From: Candidatus Pacearchaeota archaeon
GTDB lineage: Archaea > Nanoarchaeota > Nanoarchaeia > Pacearchaeales > GW2011-AR1
Assembly: GCA_002690445.1 (NCBI GenBank)
Contig: NZER01000460.1
Location: forward strand, 1-16,440
Reading direction: 5' to 3'
Length of the DNA stretch: 16,440 nt
Made by a program: the position numbers and the translations under genes. Below the pieces are notes generated by a model. The model saw only the letters and a list, made by a program, of their open reading frames with translations, made no database searches and was not told the DNA's origin. Positions 2,985 to 16,440 of the stretch are shown piece by piece (position 1 is the stretch's first letter; each line of letters begins with the position of its first letter).

Positions 2985-3326
2985 ATGCCACGTATTGGAG
3001 TAAAGCTAGGCTTGACCTTAAAAATGAGTTCGGGGGACGGATTTAACTTTTTCCGTCCTGAGGTGTCTATAGATGACATAGATACTGATACGGACATTGA
3101 TCCACAGATAGAGGCCGCTCTACAGGCTGTTCATGAAGTCTATAAAGCTGCTGAAATGGCTGTATCGGACATTGTTGACACTTCAGAGATAGCTGACCAT
3201 ACCAGTGTTGTACAGGAGATGAGGGAACGCATGACTTCAATGGAAGCGGACCTTCAGAAACTTAAGACCAGTGGGCCTACCTCTGGAGATTTTGAACTTT
3301 CAGTAGGAGATGATGAAGATTGGTAA
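2985..3326 (+). CDS. Hypothetical small acidic protein
   Basis: 113 residues, not recognised. The N-terminus is short and basic (MPRIGVKLGL), followed by a strongly acidic stretch (about 27-43, with repeated D-I/T-D), a helical segment predicted as possible coiled coil (about 45-95) and an acidic end DDEDW. The start is an ATG with a strong AAAGGAG Shine-Dalgarno just upstream, and the SSB gene ends 11 nt before it. Its last codons overlap the TTG start of the clamp gene, so translation is probably coupled. The acidic tail resembles that of the preceding SSB, which suggests a replication accessory protein, but no function can be assigned. Confidence 0.72.
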   Translation: MPRIGVKLGLTLKMSSGDGFNFFRPEVSIDDIDTDTDIDPQIEAALQAVHEVYKAAEMAVSDIVDTSEIADHTSVVQEMRERMTSMEADLQKLKTSGPTSGDFELSVGDDEDW

Positions 3327-4420
3327 ATATATCTCGCAAAGCATTAGATCAGAGTCTTTCTTTTATATCATCTAATGCAAAGACTATAGGAGAGGCATCC
3401 CTTCTCGGTGTTGCTGAGGGAGATTCTCTCCGTTTTTGGCAATCTGGGTTTGTTCAGGTATGGGATTCGGTTCCATTGGAGAAATCCGGAGACTTCTCTT
3501 GCTCGGTAAGAGGGGTGAAGTTTGGGCAGATAGTATCTGCTTGTAATACAGAGACTATTTCTCTTTCCTCAACTGATAGAGGAGTCACTATTCGTAGTGG
3601 CAAGTCTCGTGTCAGGGTTCCTACGTTCGTAGGGGCATGGGATTCTATACAGGAGCCTCCTAAGGTCGATTCTTTTATTACCGTTAGCGGAGAACTTGTT
3701 ACAGCATTTACAAAAGGTCAGCCTTTTCTTGCAAAAGAAGAGTCTCAACCATCCTTGACGTGTTTTGCTTTGCGAATTGAGGATGGACAATTGCGCCTTT
3801 CTTCCACTAATGGAAGCAATATGTATAGCCACGTTGTTGATTATGAAGGAGAGCCGAACTTCTCTGAGATTATTGTTAGTAAGGAAGTAGCACAGTCTGC
3901 TACAAAGGTTTTTGGGAGTGGGGATTCTATACAGCTTGGTGTGGATTCCAATGGAATTATTGTCATGATGAATATGGAAGGGACGAGAATTCTTTCCGCA
4001 CCCCAATTTGCAGGGGTATTTCCCGACATAAATCGTATTATTAAGGCTCCTTATAACCCGTTATTCAAATGTAAGAAAAGTATCATGGTGGATATGTTGA
4101 AATTATCTTCACATATGACTGATTCCAAGGCCTCATACATGAGATTTGAGTCAGTGGAGGATGATATACAGGTTTATTTTCCAGAAACAGATATGGAGTA
4201 CGATCTATATCTGGAAGGAGCAGAGATCATAGCTCCTTTTGAGAAGATTTTTCTAAATCCAGGGTATTTATCAGATTGTATTTCCACAGTTGCGGGTGAC
4301 GAAATAGCTGTTGGATTAGGAACTAGTGGAACTACGTTGTCACCATTGGAGATAAAAGATGACTCAGACGGAAACAAATCCTGTTCTATTATCCAACAGA
4401 TATATTATTCAGGAACTTGA
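3320..4420 (+). CDS. DnaN-like beta sliding clamp
   Basis: 366 residues, the same length as the E. coli beta clamp. The second-domain signature appears as LRLSSTNGSNMY (about 158-169), equivalent to the clamp 'ATDGHRLA' region. The third-domain entry appears as GVFPDINRII (232-241), equivalent to the beta-clamp 'GKFPDYRRVIP' segment. The C-terminal part (about 305-345) follows the beta-clamp pattern of a FL.PGYL-type helix and then VGLG. Role: processivity ring on duplex DNA. The start must be TTG at 3320 because an in-frame TGA precedes it at 3314; AGGAG at 3304-3308 is suitably spaced. The 3' end overlaps the polymerase gene by 62 nt. Sequence similarity is distant, so assignment rests on these motifs, the length and the context. 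Confidence 0.72.
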   Translation: MVNISRKALDQSLSFISSNAKTIGEASLLGVAEGDSLRFWQSGFVQVWDSVPLEKSGDFSCSVRGVKFGQIVSACNTETISLSSTDRGVTIRSGKSRVRVPTFVGAWDSIQEPPKVDSFITVSGELVTAFTKGQPFLAKEESQPSLTCFALRIEDGQLRLSSTNGSNMYSHVVDYEGEPNFSEIIVSKEVAQSATKVFGSGDSIQLGVDSNGIIVMMNMEGTRILSAPQFAGVFPDINRIIKAPYNPLFKCKKSIMVDMLKLSSHMTDSKASYMRFESVEDDIQVYFPETDMEYDLYLEGAEIIAPFEKIFLNPGYLSDCISTVAGDEIAVGLGTSGTTLSPLEIKDDSDGNKSCSIIQQIYYSGT

Positions 4421-7549: not shown

Positions 7550-7864
7550 GTGAGAGACGATCCTTTTAAGCAGAACACTCCTCATCAGCTTCTGGTAAAG
7601 AGCTGGATTGAAAATGCTGGTATTGGGACTATTTTAGAGGAAGATTTCGGTAAGTATGTGGTTGATATCTATATACCTGATTTACTTCTAGGAATTGAGA
7701 TAGATGGTCCTTACCATCTAAAGAAACGAGATAGATTAAGGGATGGGTATTTAAAAGAATCCTTCGGAATAGATATCTGGAGGATATCCGATAAGGATAT
7801 AAAAGTTAGTTATCGTGGCGAGCTTATAGATCGTATTATGGCTAGGGTTAAGGAGATGGAATAG
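7550..7864 (+). CDS. Vsr/DUF559-like PD-(D/E)XK endonuclease
   Basis: 104 residues. The core matches the very-short-patch-repair/DUF559 nuclease pattern: Asp39 in VVDIYIP, then IEIDGPYH with Glu50, Asp52 and His56, then a basic helix (KKRDRLRD) and the closing strand GIDIWRISDKDI. These are the usual metal-binding and catalytic positions of this branch. The start is GTG at 7550, three bases after the previous stop, with only a weak purine-rich upstream signal. The protein is about the minimal size of the fold with no extra domain. Likely a phage DNA-processing or nicking nuclease acting in recombination or repair; the substrate is unknown. It could also be a stand-alone homing-type nuclease, but the tight operon fit argues against that. 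Confidence 0.78.
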   Translation: MRDDPFKQNTPHQLLVKSWIENAGIGTILEEDFGKYVVDIYIPDLLLGIEIDGPYHLKKRDRLRDGYLKESFGIDIWRISDKDIKVSYRGELIDRIMARVKEME

Positions 7865-9515: not shown

Positions 9516-11759
9516 ATGGTCATAGGAAAACTTTCAAATAACGCATTATCTGTCATAGAGAGGCGATATCTTCTAGAAGAAGAGTCACCAGAAGAAATGT
9601 TTGCACGTGTAGCAAAAACTATGGCTTCCATAGATAAAAACTATGGAATCTCTTCAAGTGAGATAGATAGGTTAGGAGAAAAGTTTTTCAATATGATGTG
9701 GGATTTGGATTTCATACCGAATTCCCCTACTTTAATGAATGCGGGTACTGGGCAAGGTACTTTGAGTGCATGTTATGTCATGGATATAGATGACAGCATG
9801 GATAGCATTATGAGTACGGCATATGATCAAGCCATGATTGAGAAGTTTGGCGGAGGGGTAGGATTCTCGTTAAGTGATCTCCGACCTACTGACTCTCACA
9901 TATCATCTACTCAGGGTAAAGCCTGTGGCCCAATAGCTGTTTTAGAGACTTTAAGTCAAGTTGGGACGATGATTACCCAAGGTGGTAAAAGAGACGGGGC
10001 TCATATGGCTATTATTTCTGTTTATCATCCCAATATTATGGATTTTATTACCTGTAAAACTGAAGAGGGCAGAATACATAATTTCAATATCAGTGTTGGT
10101 GCCGATGTCTCATTTATGCAGGCTGTAAAGGATGATGAATATATACATTTGACATGGCCTTTGGACAAAAAATCTTACAGTACTTCTTTTGATGAAAGTT
10201 ATGTAAAAGCCAGAAAGATATTTAGTTCCATAATTGATGGAGCTTGGAAGAATGGCGAACCAGGGATGGTTTGGCTAGATAACATTAATAAGGACAACAC
10301 TACTCCTCAACTGGGCAATATAAATGCTACGAATCCCTGTGGAGAGCAGCCTCTTCTGAGTGGAGAGTCATGTAATCTAGGTAGCATCAATCTTGGTAAT
10401 TTTATTAGTAATGGGGGATTCGATTCCGTTAAATTTGAGTATGTTGTTCGTCTCTGTACTCGCTTTCTAGATAATGTGGTTGATGCCAACCATCATCCTA
10501 CTGACAAAACTACAGATATGAATCGTCAGACACGAAAGATCGGTCTCGGAGTTATGGGATGGGCTGATTTACTTTCCCGTCTAGGTATTCCTTATGATAG
10601 TGAGGATGCTCTTAATCTTGCTGACTTGATTGGAAGTAATTTAAAAGATATTGCTGATAATGAGAGTTCTAAAATAGGTAAAGAGAAAGGTAATTTTCCT
10701 GCGTTTGATAAATCTCCTCTAAACTCAAAAAATGGAGGAGAATGGGACACTATGAGAAATGCTTGGAGATTGTCCATAGCTCCCACTGGAACTATCTCTA
10801 TGATTGCCGATGCTTCGTCTGGAATCGAGCCTCATTTCTCTCTTGCATATAAGAAACAGAATATGTCCTCCCAAATGGAGGGTGTCGAGCTTTTATATGT
10901 AAATAGGGATGTCCGTGATCATATTTCAGATGATATTGACTTAGATGCCCATATTGATGGTGGAAATAAAGTAACTGAGCTTATTCCAGACGAAATTAAG
11001 CCCTACTTTAGAACAAGTAATGAGATAGAACCTTCTTGGCATGTTCGTATGCAAGCTGTTTGGCAGGCTCATGTTGATAGTGGTATATCGAAGACTATTA
11101 ATATGCCTTTTGAGGCCACTGAGAAAGATGTATGGAGTGCCTATGTACTTGCGTGGGAACTCGACTGTAAAGGTATTACGGTCTATAGAAATGGTTCCAG
11201 ACAGAAAGAAGTTCTGGTTTCCATGTCTGATTCTCTAAATAAGTCTGTCGATCAGAAATTCGGTAAGGATTTTAGAAGGGAACAGGAACTAGATGCCAAG
11301 GTAAATAGGATTCGTACCGCTCATGGAAATTTGTATGTAACTACTGCTTTTCAGGACGGGAAACTAATAGAGATATTTACACATCTAGGTAAAAGTGGTG
11401 CCGCTGAGCATGCACAGAGTGAGGCTCTTGGGAGAGTCATCTCCACAGCATTGCAATATGGAGTTCCTGCGTCTGAAATATCCAAACAGTTGAAAGGGAT
11501 TACGTCTCAAGTAAATTGGGATAATGGAAAATTGATACGTTCCGTTCCTGATGCCATATCCCAAGTCATTGCTCAGGTAACTGGCACCACTAGCGATGAC
11601 TCTAGCAGCACTGGGGATGTACAGGTGCAGTTTCAAGAGGAATCTGCCGCTGCTCTTTCTGGTGGGACGTTGGTTTGTTCAGAGTGTGATAGTGAGAATG
11701 TTTCTATGGAAGAGGGATGCATGAAATGTTATTCGTGCGGCTTCTCTAAATGCGAGTAG
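9516..11759 (+). CDS. nrdJ: Class II (adenosylcobalamin-dependent) ribonucleotide reductase
   Basis: 747 residues. Converts ribonucleotides to deoxyribonucleotides using a B12-derived radical. Seen: NSPTLMNAG, the substrate-proximal segment; Cys86 in LSACYV, the first redox Cys; GGGVGFSLSDLRP typical of NrdJ; the thiyl-radical motif N273-P-C275-G-E277; and Cys286 in ESCNLGSINL, the second redox Cys. Downstream are GVMGWADLL and the SIAPTGTISMIAD phosphate-binding region. The C-terminal 30 residues are Cys rich (CSEC, CMKC, CGFSKC), matching the mobile redox/zinc tail of NrdJ. No NrdB or NrdG gene is visible, fitting a one-subunit class II enzyme. Re-reduction needs a redoxin, and a NrdH-like gene lies 2 kb downstream. 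AGAGG precedes the ATG by 5 nt. Confidence 0.93.
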   Translation: MVIGKLSNNALSVIERRYLLEEESPEEMFARVAKTMASIDKNYGISSSEIDRLGEKFFNMMWDLDFIPNSPTLMNAGTGQGTLSACYVMDIDDSMDSIMSTAYDQAMIEKFGGGVGFSLSDLRPTDSHISSTQGKACGPIAVLETLSQVGTMITQGGKRDGAHMAIISVYHPNIMDFITCKTEEGRIHNFNISVGADVSFMQAVKDDEYIHLTWPLDKKSYSTSFDESYVKARKIFSSIIDGAWKNGEPGMVWLDNINKDNTTPQLGNINATNPCGEQPLLSGESCNLGSINLGNFISNGGFDSVKFEYVVRLCTRFLDNVVDANHHPTDKTTDMNRQTRKIGLGVMGWADLLSRLGIPYDSEDALNLADLIGSNLKDIADNESSKIGKEKGNFPAFDKSPLNSKNGGEWDTMRNAWRLSIAPTGTISMIADASSGIEPHFSLAYKKQNMSSQMEGVELLYVNRDVRDHISDDIDLDAHIDGGNKVTELIPDEIKPYFRTSNEIEPSWHVRMQAVWQAHVDSGISKTINMPFEATEKDVWSAYVLAWELDCKGITVYRNGSRQKEVLVSMSDSLNKSVDQKFGKDFRREQELDAKVNRIRTAHGNLYVTTAFQDGKLIEIFTHLGKSGAAEHAQSEALGRVISTALQYGVPASEISKQLKGITSQVNWDNGKLIRSVPDAISQVIAQVTGTTSDDSSSTGDVQVQFQEESAAALSGGTLVCSECDSENVSMEEGCMKCYSCGFSKCE

Positions 11760-13373: not shown

Positions 13374-13386
13374 TTATGGAGTGTTT

Positions 13387-13809
13387 ATGGTTGGAGATAA
13401 TAGAAAACTCGTTGTTGAGATTAGAGAGGAAAGTCCCAATATTCCTGCCATAGAAATCTCTAGAAGGTTAGGTATTACAAGAGAACGAGTTCGACAGATT
13501 TTAAAAAAAGAAGGGTTAGAGACAAGGGTTCCGCCTATTAGAAGAAAATATAGCTGTGTTAAATGTGAAGTAGAGTTTATAAAGACTCCCAATTCTTCCT
13601 ATAAACATTGTGAGTCCTGCCTAGAGAATTTTCATATTAACAATCAAAATAGGATAATAGAGTTTTCGTGCCAGAATTGTGGAAATCTAAGGCGACAGGC
13701 TCGTTCGCAATATATTCTTGCTAATAGGCATTTCTGCTGCCAAGAGTGTGTTGGTGATTATAGGATCGGCAGATATAGAACATTAGAGGATAAAGTTAAT
13801 GGTAGTTGA
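13387..13809 (+). CDS. HTH (sigma-70 region 4-like) protein with two zinc ribbons
   Basis: 140 residues from the ATG at 13387, chosen because GGAG lies 5 nt before it; a GTG at 13381 is the alternative. The N-terminal helix-turn-helix IPAIEISRRLGITRERVRQIL (about 19-39) closely resembles sigma-70 region 4, the part that reads the -35 box. Two treble-clef/ribbon-like Cys pairs follow: C57-x2-C60 with C75-x2-C78, and C95-x2-C98 with C118-x2-C121 (or Cys117). No sigma regions 2 or 3 are present, so it is not a whole sigma factor. It probably binds DNA and may regulate phage late genes or be a HNH-less remnant of a mobile-nuclease DNA-binding domain. Its stop overlaps the redoxin start. Confidence 0.75.
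   Translation: MVGDNRKLVVEIREESPNIPAIEISRRLGITRERVRQILKKEGLETRVPPIRRKYSCVKCEVEFIKTPNSSYKHCESCLENFHINNQNRIIEFSCQNCGNLRRQARSQYILANRHFCCQECVGDYRIGRYRTLEDKVNGS
13785..13790 (+). promoter_or_regulatory. Shine-Dalgarno deciding the redoxin start
   Basis: AGAGGA is spaced 8 nt from the ATG at 13799. It supports translation starting upstream of the in-frame TGA rather than at the ATG at 13844, before which I see no comparable purine-rich site. Confidence 0.65.
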
Positions 13810-14035
13810 AGTATATACATCAAATGGTTGAGGACCCTGCCATATGACGAAAGCGTGGCTTTCGGGTAAAGGGGTTCCATTCACTGAATACAATATATCC
13901 ACTGATTTTGAAGCAGGAAAAAGGCTTCAGGGCATGGGATATCACGTTACTCCAGTGGTTCGGTTGGATACAGAGATTATTGTTGGGTACAGTCCAGCGA
14001 AACTTGAGGCTATATGTAATTCTTTGGGATTATGA
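13799..14035 (+). CDS. Selenocysteine-containing NrdH/glutaredoxin-like redoxin (in-frame TGA at 13829-13831)
   Basis: Read through the TGA, the gene encodes 78 residues with a complete NrdH/glutaredoxin fold: first strand VVEVYTSNG, active site (TGA)11-G12-P13-C14, helix HMTKAWLSGKG, second strand PFTEYNIS, the cis-proline T51-P52-V, and the NrdH-type ending VGYSPAKLEAI. NrdH proteins are about 75 residues. The TGA replaces exactly the nucleophilic first Cys of a CGPC-type site, the position where selenocysteine occurs in known redox selenoproteins. The start is ATG 13799, overlapping the previous gene by 11 nt, with AGAGGA 8 nt upstream. A SECIS-like hairpin follows the TGA. UGA serves as a stop for this gene itself and for at least five others in the window. 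Probable role: electron donor to the phage NrdJ. Alternatives: a Cys-to-stop mutation or sequencing error. Conventional calling would give only an active-site-less fragment from 13844. Confidence 0.82.
13832..13878 (+). promoter_or_regulatory. Candidate bacterial SECIS element
   Basis: Directly after the TGA, the apical hairpin CGAAAGC-GUG-GCUUUCG (13848-13864) has a perfect 7-bp stem. Below it, GGACCCU (13832-13838) can pair with GGGGUUCC (13871-13878), leaving one bulged U (13875), one G-U pair and an internal loop; C13840-C13841 can add two pairs with G13865-G13866. Published bacterial SECIS criteria are an apical loop 16-37 nt after the UGA with a G in its first two bases; here the loop starts 23 nt after the UGA and begins G-U. 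The apical stem lacks the bulged U of E. coli fdhF. In known systems this hairpin binds SelB carrying Sec-tRNA. Confidence 0.7.
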
Positions 14036-16440
14036 CTTTAGAAAAAGAGCATCTATCTGAGCTTCTTACTCTTCTTGAGGCCACAGAATTTCTGCACAAG
14101 CAGCAAGGAGAATATAACCGCATAGAAGGGGGAGGAACGCCTGCGCCTCAAGCAGGCACTCCTGAAGCTGCCCATAGAGGTAAGAATTGGGACTATGTTA
14201 GTTCTACTCCCGCTCCGGAAGGTGCAGAGCGTTTAACAACGCCGCTTCCTGGAGGAAGGGCATGGTGGAGACGCAAGCCGACTGAAGGAGAGGTTGAGGC
14301 AACCGTTCCTCAGACAGAAGCAGAGGCATCAGAACGGCAGATTCCTCAGGAAAGAGTTTCACGAGGGATGCGTACTTTAGATAATCTTGAGGCTATGAGT
14401 GATGAGGAATTAGCTCAAGAGGCTATTGATGTCCGTAAGACTCATATAGCCAATCTAGGTATGGGTCAAAGTGAACTTGAGGGTTCCTATCTAAGTACCG
14501 AAGCTGCCAATAGGTATTTGAAAAGAGGACATCAGCTTCATGTAGCCACCACATCTATTAGTAATCCATATATTTTCAGAAAGGCTTCAGAATATTCTAC
14601 TTTCAGTTATCAGTTTCTACCTGAGGGAAAGACTATAGATGACCCAGATACATCTCCTAAGGATATTGCGGAGGCAGGACGTAAGGCTACTGAGTATTTA
14701 AAGTCTCAGGGATACGATTCTGCATATCTTCCTGAAGCTGAACGCAATGAAGGAATACTTGTCGTATTTGACCGTAACCAAGTGCGTCTTGGGGAAGGAC
14801 AGGAGATCACCTCAGAGCTTATTGCTTCAGAGACGAAGATAGCACGGGATGCTACAAAGACAGAAAAATTCACAAGGGCAATATATGGGGAGGACTGGGA
14901 AGAGAGGGAGAGAGCAGGAAAGCTTCGTCCGAAAGCAGTTCCTTTAACTCCAGAAGAGGAACAGCGACGGGAGAAAAAAGCACTTAAACAGGAAGAAGAA
15001 GAAACGGCAGATTGGGCAAAGAACCAACCTATTGAGGCAAAGAGATTATTCGATGAGTATGGTTTAGACCCCGACACAGGAGCCGCAGAGATTTTGCAAC
15101 TTGTGCGGTCTCACAAAGTTGATCATGGTGATGCCAGAGTGATGCTGAATCTGAGGTCTGGTAATCAGAGACAATATCAACGTGGTAGGTGGTTTGCAGA
15201 TGATCTAGGTCCCCCGAAGAGGGCCCATGCTCCTATTGGTTATATAGATATAGATGCACAGGAAGTACAAAACGCTGCTGCAATGGCAATATTGTCGCAT
15301 ACGTCTCCTGAAGGAATTTCTGGTGAATATGTTGTTTCTCCTGAGGAGGCGGTTAGTGTTACTCCTTTCTGGAGTCCTGGTGATGAGAAATCTGCAAACG
15401 AGTCATTAGAGGACCTTCCTGCCGTAGAAGAAGGTAAAGTTCGATTATTTCGTGGCGGTCACGATATAAAGGTATCTGATGAGCCAAGTGGAGAGATAGA
15501 TCAGGCTGAATTTAAAGTTCATGTGCGACTTGATGATCTTGAAGAATTTGTAAATAACGCTGGGGTTCCCTCTGTAAAACTTCCTTGGGGTGGAGCATAT
15601 AGTGAATTTTCTATTGAAAGAAAGGATCGGGGTAGATATCTAGCTGATCGAAAGGACCTCCCCAGTACTCTTTATCATGTCTCACCAGCGGGACCAGCGA
15701 TAGAATCCACAGGTGCGCTCTTAGCTACGACTCATGATCGCAGTGAAAAAGTTCAAGGAAAGGGTGGTCTTGGGGGCCCTCCCTTGGGAACGGTGTCTTT
15801 TACTGGTGATCGTAAGACAGCGGAGATGATAAGTCGAGAACTTATACGAACAGGAGAGGCGGCCAGGATTACCGATCCAGAGGAATTTAAAGATTTTCTT
15901 ATTCGTTTAGTGAGGGAAGATGAGATAAGTGCGGGGATACCCCAAGGTTCCATAGCAGAAACCGATCTTGGGCCTAATCGCCCTTCATTTGATAGTGTTA
16001 TGGATGTAGATCAGCAAATGTGGGATTTGAGAAGTCCTCTACATTTTCTAACTGAGTATTACTCGTACAGAAGTTCTGTGGCAGGAGAGTTAGCTTTAGA
16101 GAAAGCAGGGATAGCCAAAGACCCTGATGTGCCTTACTGGCGGAGACGGGCACAGTCAATGCCTCTAATTTCGACTTTTTATCCTTCTTTAGAGAATCCT
16201 GTAATTGTGGGTTCTTTACAGTCTCGTGAAGGTTTAGAACGAGCAAAGGAAATAAGACCAGAGAATATAAAGACGTTTACTGTTTCTACGGATAGTCTTC
16301 CTGAAGATGTGGTAATTAGAAGAGCCGATCCTCTAGATGAAATAGAGGTATTTGCTGATATTCCTGTACAGGCTACTCCTAGTTTACGGGAAACAGTAGA
16401 TAACGATCCTGAGTCCAAACATGTTATGGACACTCTGGCT
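14032..16440 (+). CDS. Very large polyvalent-type protein with ADP-ribosyltransferase-like segments (3' partial)
   Basis: From the ATG at 14032, which overlaps the redoxin stop (ATGA), the frame has no stop for 803 codons and runs off the window. Segment 1 (about 150-255) ends in GYDSAYLP (227-234) and LVVFDRNQVRL (243-253), the 'GYDG... VVFdp.QI' ending of ADP-ribosyltransferase-fold domains in phage head and polyvalent proteins. A Lys/Glu-rich coiled-coil-like linker covers about 305-335. Segment 2 has VRLFRGG (470-476). Segment 3 starts LYHVSPAG (547-554) with GTVSFTGDRKTA (586-597) and continues with NP.IVG and ENIKTF, a typical H-Y/S-E ART strand order. The N-terminus is Pro/Glu/Gly rich and probably disordered. 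Likely a virion or injected multidomain protein; whether any ART segment is active is unclear. Confidence 0.8.
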   Translation, partial: MTLEKEHLSELLTLLEATEFLHKQQGEYNRIEGGGTPAPQAGTPEAAHRGKNWDYVSSTPAPEGAERLTTPLPGGRAWWRRKPTEGEVEATVPQTEAEASERQIPQERVSRGMRTLDNLEAMSDEELAQEAIDVRKTHIANLGMGQSELEGSYLSTEAANRYLKRGHQLHVATTSISNPYIFRKASEYSTFSYQFLPEGKTIDDPDTSPKDIAEAGRKATEYLKSQGYDSAYLPEAERNEGILVVFDRNQVRLGEGQEITSELIASETKIARDATKTEKFTRAIYGEDWEERERAGKLRPKAVPLTPEEEQRREKKALKQEEEETADWAKNQPIEAKRLFDEYGLDPDTGAAEILQLVRSHKVDHGDARVMLNLRSGNQRQYQRGRWFADDLGPPKRAHAPIGYIDIDAQEVQNAAAMAILSHTSPEGISGEYVVSPEEAVSVTPFWSPGDEKSANESLEDLPAVEEGKVRLFRGGHDIKVSDEPSGEIDQAEFKVHVRLDDLEEFVNNAGVPSVKLPWGGAYSEFSIERKDRGRYLADRKDLPSTLYHVSPAGPAIESTGALLATTHDRSEKVQGKGGLGGPPLGTVSFTGDRKTAEMISRELIRTGEAARITDPEEFKDFLIRLVREDEISAGIPQGSIAETDLGPNRPSFDSVMDVDQQMWDLRSPLHFLTEYYSYRSSVAGELALEKAGIAKDPDVPYWRRRAQSMPLISTFYPSLENPVIVGSLQSREGLERAKEIRPENIKTFTVSTDSLPEDVVIRRADPLDEIEVFADIPVQATPSLRETVDNDPESKHVMDTLA

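Follow-up and report, generated by a model that had tools for sequence, protein, structure and literature searches.

Background

Selenoproteins have been catalogued in cells and in a few animal viruses. Among the bacterial ones are glutaredoxins with a UxxC active site: ten such sequences were reported from the Sargasso Sea (PMC1088965), and selenoprotein glutaredoxins are listed for bacteria in two other papers (PMC13188914, PMC9312934). The bacterial SECIS element (bSECIS) has been modelled as a stem of 4-16 pairs closed by a loop of 3-9 nt with a G in its first two positions, located 16-37 nt from the UGA and with an energy of at most -7.5 kcal/mol (PMC13188914). On the viral side, poxviruses encode selenoprotein glutathione peroxidases (PMC8310308), and tRNA-Sec genes have been described in Basilisk-like phages (PMC6145125) and in huge phages from wastewater, for which it was proposed by the authors that phages of this kind are able to encode selenocysteine proteins (PMC10747093). 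A study of vent viruses ascribed the selenocysteinyl-tRNA-forming step to viral genes (PMC5513705). Class II ribonucleotide reductase genes of the ocean were reported to be 41.1% viral (PMC9402790).

No phage-encoded selenoprotein gene was found in the literature searched, which lies mainly outside subscription journals and preprints. A term search found neither "phage" nor "virus" in the text of PMC13188914, PMC9312934, PMC1088965 and PMC12013277; in PMC2398784 "viral" occurs once, about viral diversity. Here we analyze a phage redoxin gene with an in-frame UGA. The window is the whole stretch of 16,440 nucleotides that was analyzed.

The redoxin gene

The elements of the gene are the following:

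13785..13790, + strand: purine-rich AGAGGA resembling a ribosome-binding site, 8 nt 5' of the ATG, read from the sequence
13799..14035, + strand: NrdH-like glutaredoxin gene with in-frame UGA, 78 codons and a stop, from frame, profile matches and fold
13829..13831, + strand: TGA codon 11, predicted selenocysteine of U-G-P-C, from the frame and from the same codon in relatives

The frame runs from the ATG at 13799 to a final TGA at 14033-14035 and has one internal stop, the TGA at codon 11. Read as one residue, this codon gives a protein of 78 residues, MVVEVYTSNG-U-GPC..., which agrees with the earlier note in which a complete redoxin with a lone TGA at the first active-site residue had been described. 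The start, the upstream AGAGGA, the length and the strands on both sides of the TGA are also intact, as had been claimed: the Pfam Glutaredoxin profile PF00462 is matched over its whole length by residues 3-61 (4e-12; 46.6 bits for a cut-off of 22.9), which places the protein in this family, and PHROG 22 (thioredoxin domain) matches with 4.9e-18. The finer assignment to NrdH was retained in a weaker form. The score for the NrdH subfamily TIGR02194 (60.4 bits) is under the curated cut-off of 85.75, and we therefore use the name "NrdH-like". Scores were likewise under the curated cut-offs for the Uxx-star (seleno)protein family NF041212 (39.6 bits for 66) and for the NCBIfam YruB model.

AlphaFold2, run on an alignment of 15 rows, gave a confident redoxin fold (mean pLDDT 94) in which residue 11 directly precedes a helix (12-23). 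The top Foldseek matches to this model are the cGrx1 structures 7c12 and 7c10 and several NrdH redoxins. Two traits by which bacterial-type selenoproteins are recognized are found here: the in-frame UGA occupies the position of a redox-active Cys with conserved sequence on both sides, and homologues with Cys at this position exist (the database protein P0003 and the solved NrdH/Grx chains).

Conservation of the UGA among relatives

The closest relatives in IMG/VR (68% identity) share the TGA of codon 11, and so do further relatives at 44-71% identity. Scanning IMG/VR with the TGA form of the active-site motif returned 45 stretches, 41 of which are redoxin frames as judged by eye, several of them near-identical contigs; the four others (L022, L032, L040, L045) are non-redoxin frames and were dropped. 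The same motif with TAA or TAG returned four stretches, none of them a redoxin. A narrower motif, with M-x-K-A-W added downstream, gave six stretches with TGA and none with TGY. The TGY form of the first motif gave 43 stretches, of which 12 (11 distinct) were chosen by eye as redoxins; L139 and L146, which are thioredoxin-like, and L154, whose frame is cut, were left out. For the comparisons below, the 41 viral stretches, the window and L010 were merged by identity of the first 90 nt into 31 distinct viral genes. The bacterial set comprises 62 stretches, 36 of which passed the motif filter; L085 holds a true frame that is truncated by the end of its contig.

A set of 5.8 billion proteins contained 16 relatives. 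Fifteen of them have 62-65 residues and begin at a Met just 3' of the UGA, that is, where gene callers would cut the gene at this codon. The DNA of one of these (P0009) shows the TGA, and the other 14 presumably carry it too. The remaining relative, P0003, is full-length with Cys at residue 11. Both kinds of homologue that the earlier note had envisaged, with UGA and with Cys at residue 11, are thus present, and its view of an intact rather than decayed gene is in line with relatives that keep TGA at the same codon and show no random stops or frameshifts. L010 (1817-2059), like L011 and L012, encodes a redoxin variant in which the site is U-R-P-C and an insertion precedes the GYSP motif; a 7-pair hairpin still follows the UGA.

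A SECIS-type hairpin downstream of the UGA

The following structures are predicted 3' of the UGA:

13848..13864, + strand: predicted bacterial SECIS hairpin, stem 13848-13854/13858-13864, loop GUG 13855-13857, from the fold, stem test, covariation and rule check
13832..13877, + strand: predicted outer helix around the hairpin, 13832-13838/13871-13877, from the centroid fold only

With its GUG loop, 7 pairs, distance of 23 nt after the UGA and energy of -18.4 kcal/mol, the hairpin agrees with every term of the bSECIS model. The geometric rule is unspecific, being also satisfied by 6 of the 11 Cys controls, and the energy limit of -7.5 kcal/mol is missed by 7 of the 31 viral UGA genes. A stem of 6-8 pairs follows the UGA in all 31 distinct viral genes and in all 36 bacterial genes. 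The viral hairpins fall into two registers that differ by one codon; the bacterial genes, all 36 of them, share the register of the window. The search did not select for the hairpin, since the search motif ends 5' of it.

The stems were compared with synonymous shuffles that preserve the protein. The observed stem exceeds the shuffles at p<0.05 in 57 of 67 genes, distributed as follows: 22 of the 31 viral genes, nine being short of this threshold, and 35 of the 36 bacterial genes. The window itself gives p=0.026. None of the 11 Cys-type phage redoxins shows such an excess. Conservation of the residues K-A-W-L-S and T-K-x-W-L accounts for part of the stem; this part is allowed for, since the shuffles keep the protein.

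Covariation was examined separately for each register. In register A (the window, 7 phages and 36 bacteria; 42 distinct rows), 92.6% of the cells are paired, both sides have changed in three pairs, and the covariation score is 0.419, compared with at most 0.117 when the partners are slid. Register B (23 phages) has 89.7% paired cells, two pairs changed on both sides and a score of 0.206, compared with at most 0.133. Pair-shuffle controls in both registers divide these measures: the number of doubly changed cells and the score exceed the shuffles, whereas the doubly changed pairs and the pair types do not.

Whole-fold energy is only mildly low (mean z of -1.1 for viral, -1.5 for bacterial and +0.1 for Cys genes), and the value for the window varies from -1.38 to -2.64 with the cut. 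Synonymous codon identity inside the hairpin does not rise significantly (Fisher test, p 0.24 and 0.17), and Rfam and tRNA scans of the window gave no matches. The loop is UGUAY in most bacterial UGA redoxins, compared with GUG in the window. As it fits the published bacterial model, the hairpin is predicted to act as a SECIS element. This is evidence beyond what the earlier note had put forward; the conserved UGA and the covarying hairpin together support its proposal of a phage-encoded selenoprotein with UGA at the catalytic Cys.

Genetic code and alternative readings of the UGA

The stop codons of 20 genes of the window were checked: 7 are TAG, 7 are TAA and 6 are TGA, the redoxin included. 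These genes contain 59 TGG codons and no internal stop besides the UGA of the redoxin. The window uses the standard code.

Three other readings of the codon were weighed. The TGA could be a real stop or a sequencing error in a frame that is now a relic, and public gene calls do begin after it. Decay or error is nevertheless very unlikely, because the TGA pattern yields redoxins in 41 of 45 stretches and the TAA/TAG patterns in none of four, a result by which a random stop was rejected; the persistence of the TGA in relatives at 44-71% identity and the whole profile preserved on either side of it also speak against a relic. Changes of the genetic code occur in some phages, so that the UGA might be read as an ordinary residue, as Trp under an altered code or by read-through without a SECIS element. 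We give this scarcely more than a nominal chance, as little as we give to decay. An altered code was rejected on the six genes ending in TGA and the lack of any other internal stop, to which the 59 TGG codons can be added; moreover a Trp at the first catalytic position would abolish the redox site, and a covarying hairpin lies 3' of the UGA. The functional product could also be a short protein starting at ATG 13844, with the UGA perhaps serving merely to regulate expression: this ATG opens a frame of 63 codons, and 15 of the 16 database relatives are annotated with such a start. Such a protein would be devoid of the first strand and the active site, and the Met is missing at this place in relatives such as L010, L036, L050 and L057, on which ground the short frame was rejected as main product; the reading as a whole is highly improbable, if by a hair less so than the two preceding ones.

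Selenocysteine decoding of the UGA is thus the reading that we hold with high confidence, on comparative sequence evidence. The locus holds an intact NrdH-like glutaredoxin gene of a phage, in which UGA replaces the codon of the first catalytic Cys, and a selenoprotein is its likely product.

NrdJ and the replication module

The candidate partner of the redoxin lies in the same window:

9516..11759, + strand: NrdJ, adenosylcobalamin-dependent ribonucleotide reductase, likely electron acceptor, from TIGR02504, PHROG 84 and the neighbourhood

Its score for NrdJ_Z (TIGR02504) is 615.5 bits, well over the curated cut-off of 399.95. According to PHROG matches the window is a phage replication module, which contains a helicase, a primase, a DNA polymerase, a RecA/UvsX-like recombinase, a Cas4-type exonuclease and a RuvC-like resolvase, then NrdJ, then the redoxin, NrdJ being about 2 kb upstream of the redoxin on the same strand. 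No match to the window as a whole was found in a near search among GenBank phages. A NrdJ homologue was found in 21 of the 41 viral UGA stretches, near-identical contigs such as L016-L019 included, and in all 21 it shares the strand of the redoxin and lies 240-2531 bases upstream of it. Among the 20 stretches without NrdJ, 13 extend less than 2 kb upstream of the redoxin and seven extend about 2.9-6 kb.

NrdH-type redoxins reduce ribonucleotide reductases, and electron supply to NrdJ is consequently the best-supported role. The constant upstream position in the 21 stretches and in the window makes NrdJ the probable partner, in our estimate with a fair margin of doubt. The phage selenoprotein might instead have another thiol target, for example a peroxidase, a methionine sulfoxide reductase or some protein of the host. 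One subgroup of the viruses (L024, L028, L043, L051, L054, L060) has a DNA polymerase match and no NrdJ in stretches of 3-11.5 kb, and PMC13188914 cites a study whose title concerns a selenoprotein glutaredoxin for a selenoprotein methionine sulfoxide reductase; set against the arrangement with NrdJ, another partner appears possible though rather unlikely.

Neighbouring frames

The stop of the redoxin overlaps the next ATG in an ATGA at 14032-14035, as in L005 and L007, so that translation of the next gene and read-through of the UGA may be coupled. This next frame (14032-16440) is open over more than 803 codons and has no Pfam or PHROG match; L007 and L009 have a stretch 25% identical to it on the downstream side of their redoxin. 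Just upstream, the protein encoded at 13381-13809 overlaps the redoxin start by 11 nt. It has a sigma-70 region-4-like match just under the cut-off (23.2 for 24.1 bits) and, by eye, paired CxxC motifs, and is possibly a phage regulator. Elsewhere in the window, 7550-7864 encodes a small protein of the DUF559 family, over the cut-off and with weaker restriction-endonuclease-like matches, and 3320-4420 a possible DNA polymerase III sliding clamp, just under the cut-off (24.0 for 24.4 bits).

Selenocysteine machinery and host

A search of 14 viral records for selB, and of seven for tRNA-Sec over threshold, found neither, in records that may be fragments. Two weak RF01852 matches in the records searched coincide with ARAGORN tRNA-Tyr calls and were rejected as phage-borne tRNA-Sec. 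From the lack of a viral selB in these records we infer decoding by the host.

According to record titles, the UGA-bearing relatives belong to SAR202 and other Dehalococcoidia/Chloroflexota, Rokuibacteriota, Methylomirabilota, Deltaproteobacteria/Binatia, Bacillota and a Rubrobacteraceae. Of the 37 genomes that contain a true frame we searched 27, namely all 17 Chloroflexota and 10 others picked by hand. A selB over the cut-off is present in 24 of the 27. tRNA-Sec exceeds the gathering score in 26, two of which are borderline (48.5 and 48.7 bits), and we therefore count the 24 with at least 54 bits. Among 14 control genomes, selB was found over the cut-off in 2, tRNA-Sec in 5, selA in 1 and selD in 2. 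Eight SAR202 or related Chloroflexota genomes were also searched for the other genes: selA is over the cut-off in seven and selD in all eight, and selA, selB, selC and selD are all clear in five, the three others having respectively no selB over the cut-off, a borderline tRNA and a partial selA. The earlier note had proposed to look for Sec machinery in related phages and their hosts, and had named a host lineage devoid of it as a refutation; the machinery is present in the bacterial lineages in which this UGA gene occurs, and the viral records gave selB in none of 14 and tRNA-Sec over threshold in none of seven.

The best SelD match of each of these eight genomes (G008, G009, G012, G015, G018, G022, G023, G024) has one in-frame TGA, which makes SelD, too, a probable selenoprotein in these genomes. 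In a larger sample of 201 Chloroflexota genomes, 76 have a redoxin match, the best (49%) being in a SAR202 genome. Inspection by eye of 96 redoxin matches showed 37 with exactly one TGA, counted irrespective of its position, and none with TAA or TAG; redoxins of Sec type may thus be widespread and under-annotated in Chloroflexota.

To assess the host we compared the phage NrdJ with 27 genomes. Identity is best (48-49%) in three Chloroflexota (L093, L111, L115). It is 43% for three SAR202-titled genomes, no closer than Rokuibacteriota, then about 39-45% for Rokuibacteriota, Methylomirabilota and Rubrobacteraceae (one Rubrobacteraceae piece 35%) and 30-35% for Deltaproteobacteria, Binatia and Bacillota. 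These identities do not single out SAR202 as host. The tree of the redoxins is too short for a host assignment; in it the window groups, unsupported, with Chloroflexota rows, and P0003, which has Cys, is paired with L016, which has TGA (93/91). A Chloroflexota host is plausible, with roughly even chances in our judgement, in a sample where phyla are unevenly represented.

Proposed function

In the proposed mechanism, the hairpin 23 nt 3' of the UGA would recruit SelB and the selenocysteine tRNA of the host, and selenocysteine would be inserted at codon 11. The host, perhaps a Chloroflexota of the SAR202/Dehalococcoidia kind, would supply the Sec machinery, and the U-G-P-C site would pass electrons to the phage's own B12-dependent NrdJ. 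The virus of the window and dozens of related ones thus likely make a selenium protein by means of host machinery, and this selenoredoxin probably feeds the enzyme that makes the phage's DNA building blocks. A broader and much more speculative scheme, which we regard as doubtful, is that Chloroflexota phages base their supply of deoxynucleotides on selenium and B12 by hijacking host SelB and tRNA-Sec, with Sec insertion gating the next gene through the ATGA (a part limited to the window's own clade) and host selenium acting as a checkpoint of infection.

If phages do carry selenoproteins, the selenium status of the host becomes a variable of phage replication, and phages can carry Sec genes between hosts. 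Gene calling with UGA as a stop would then have truncated viral proteins, as the 15 of 16 database relatives that start after the UGA illustrate. The dependence of a phage on host selB also becomes directly testable.

Comparison with known systems

Cys-type NrdH redoxins, phage ones included (PDB 4fiw, 4hs1, 1h75), share with the redoxin of the window the fold, the C-x-x-C type of site and the association with ribonucleotide reductase. By protein, 585 GenBank phage records match the redoxin, all below 60% identity. Four GenBank redoxin matches were examined, of which three have no gene listed at that place and one comes from an environmental record. All four have Cys in place of the UGA residue, and the 11 viral Cys redoxins show no excess of hairpin. 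We take the clostridial glutaredoxin cGrx1 to be in nature a selenoprotein. Its structures (PDB 7c10/7c12) are the closest solved ones to our redoxin both by sequence (1.1e-13) and by fold; it differs in being cellular and in having been solved, by title, as Cys or Ser forms.

The phage tRNA-Sec genes (PMC6145125, PMC10747093) suggest a phage part in selenocysteine decoding, as here. These reports concern the tRNA and, in the text available, name no selenoprotein gene, whereas the seven viral records searched here for tRNA-Sec show none over threshold. The poxvirus glutathione peroxidases (PMC8310308) are, as proposed for the present redoxin, virus-encoded selenoproteins decoded by the host, but they depend on a eukaryotic SECIS and host and belong to an unrelated protein family.

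The UGA redoxins of SAR202/Dehalococcoidia (L067, L068, L105, L078, L084 and others) share with the window TSxG-U-GPCHM, the hairpin register and a similar length; they differ in being, by record titles, chromosomal in bacteria and in their mostly UGUAY loop. The described bacterial UxxC glutaredoxins likewise combine a redoxin fold, Sec at the first catalytic position and a bSECIS-type hairpin in the coding region. In the available text of PMC1088965 and PMC13188914 none of them is ascribed to phages, whereas the redoxin of the window lies in a phage replication module, beside NrdJ.
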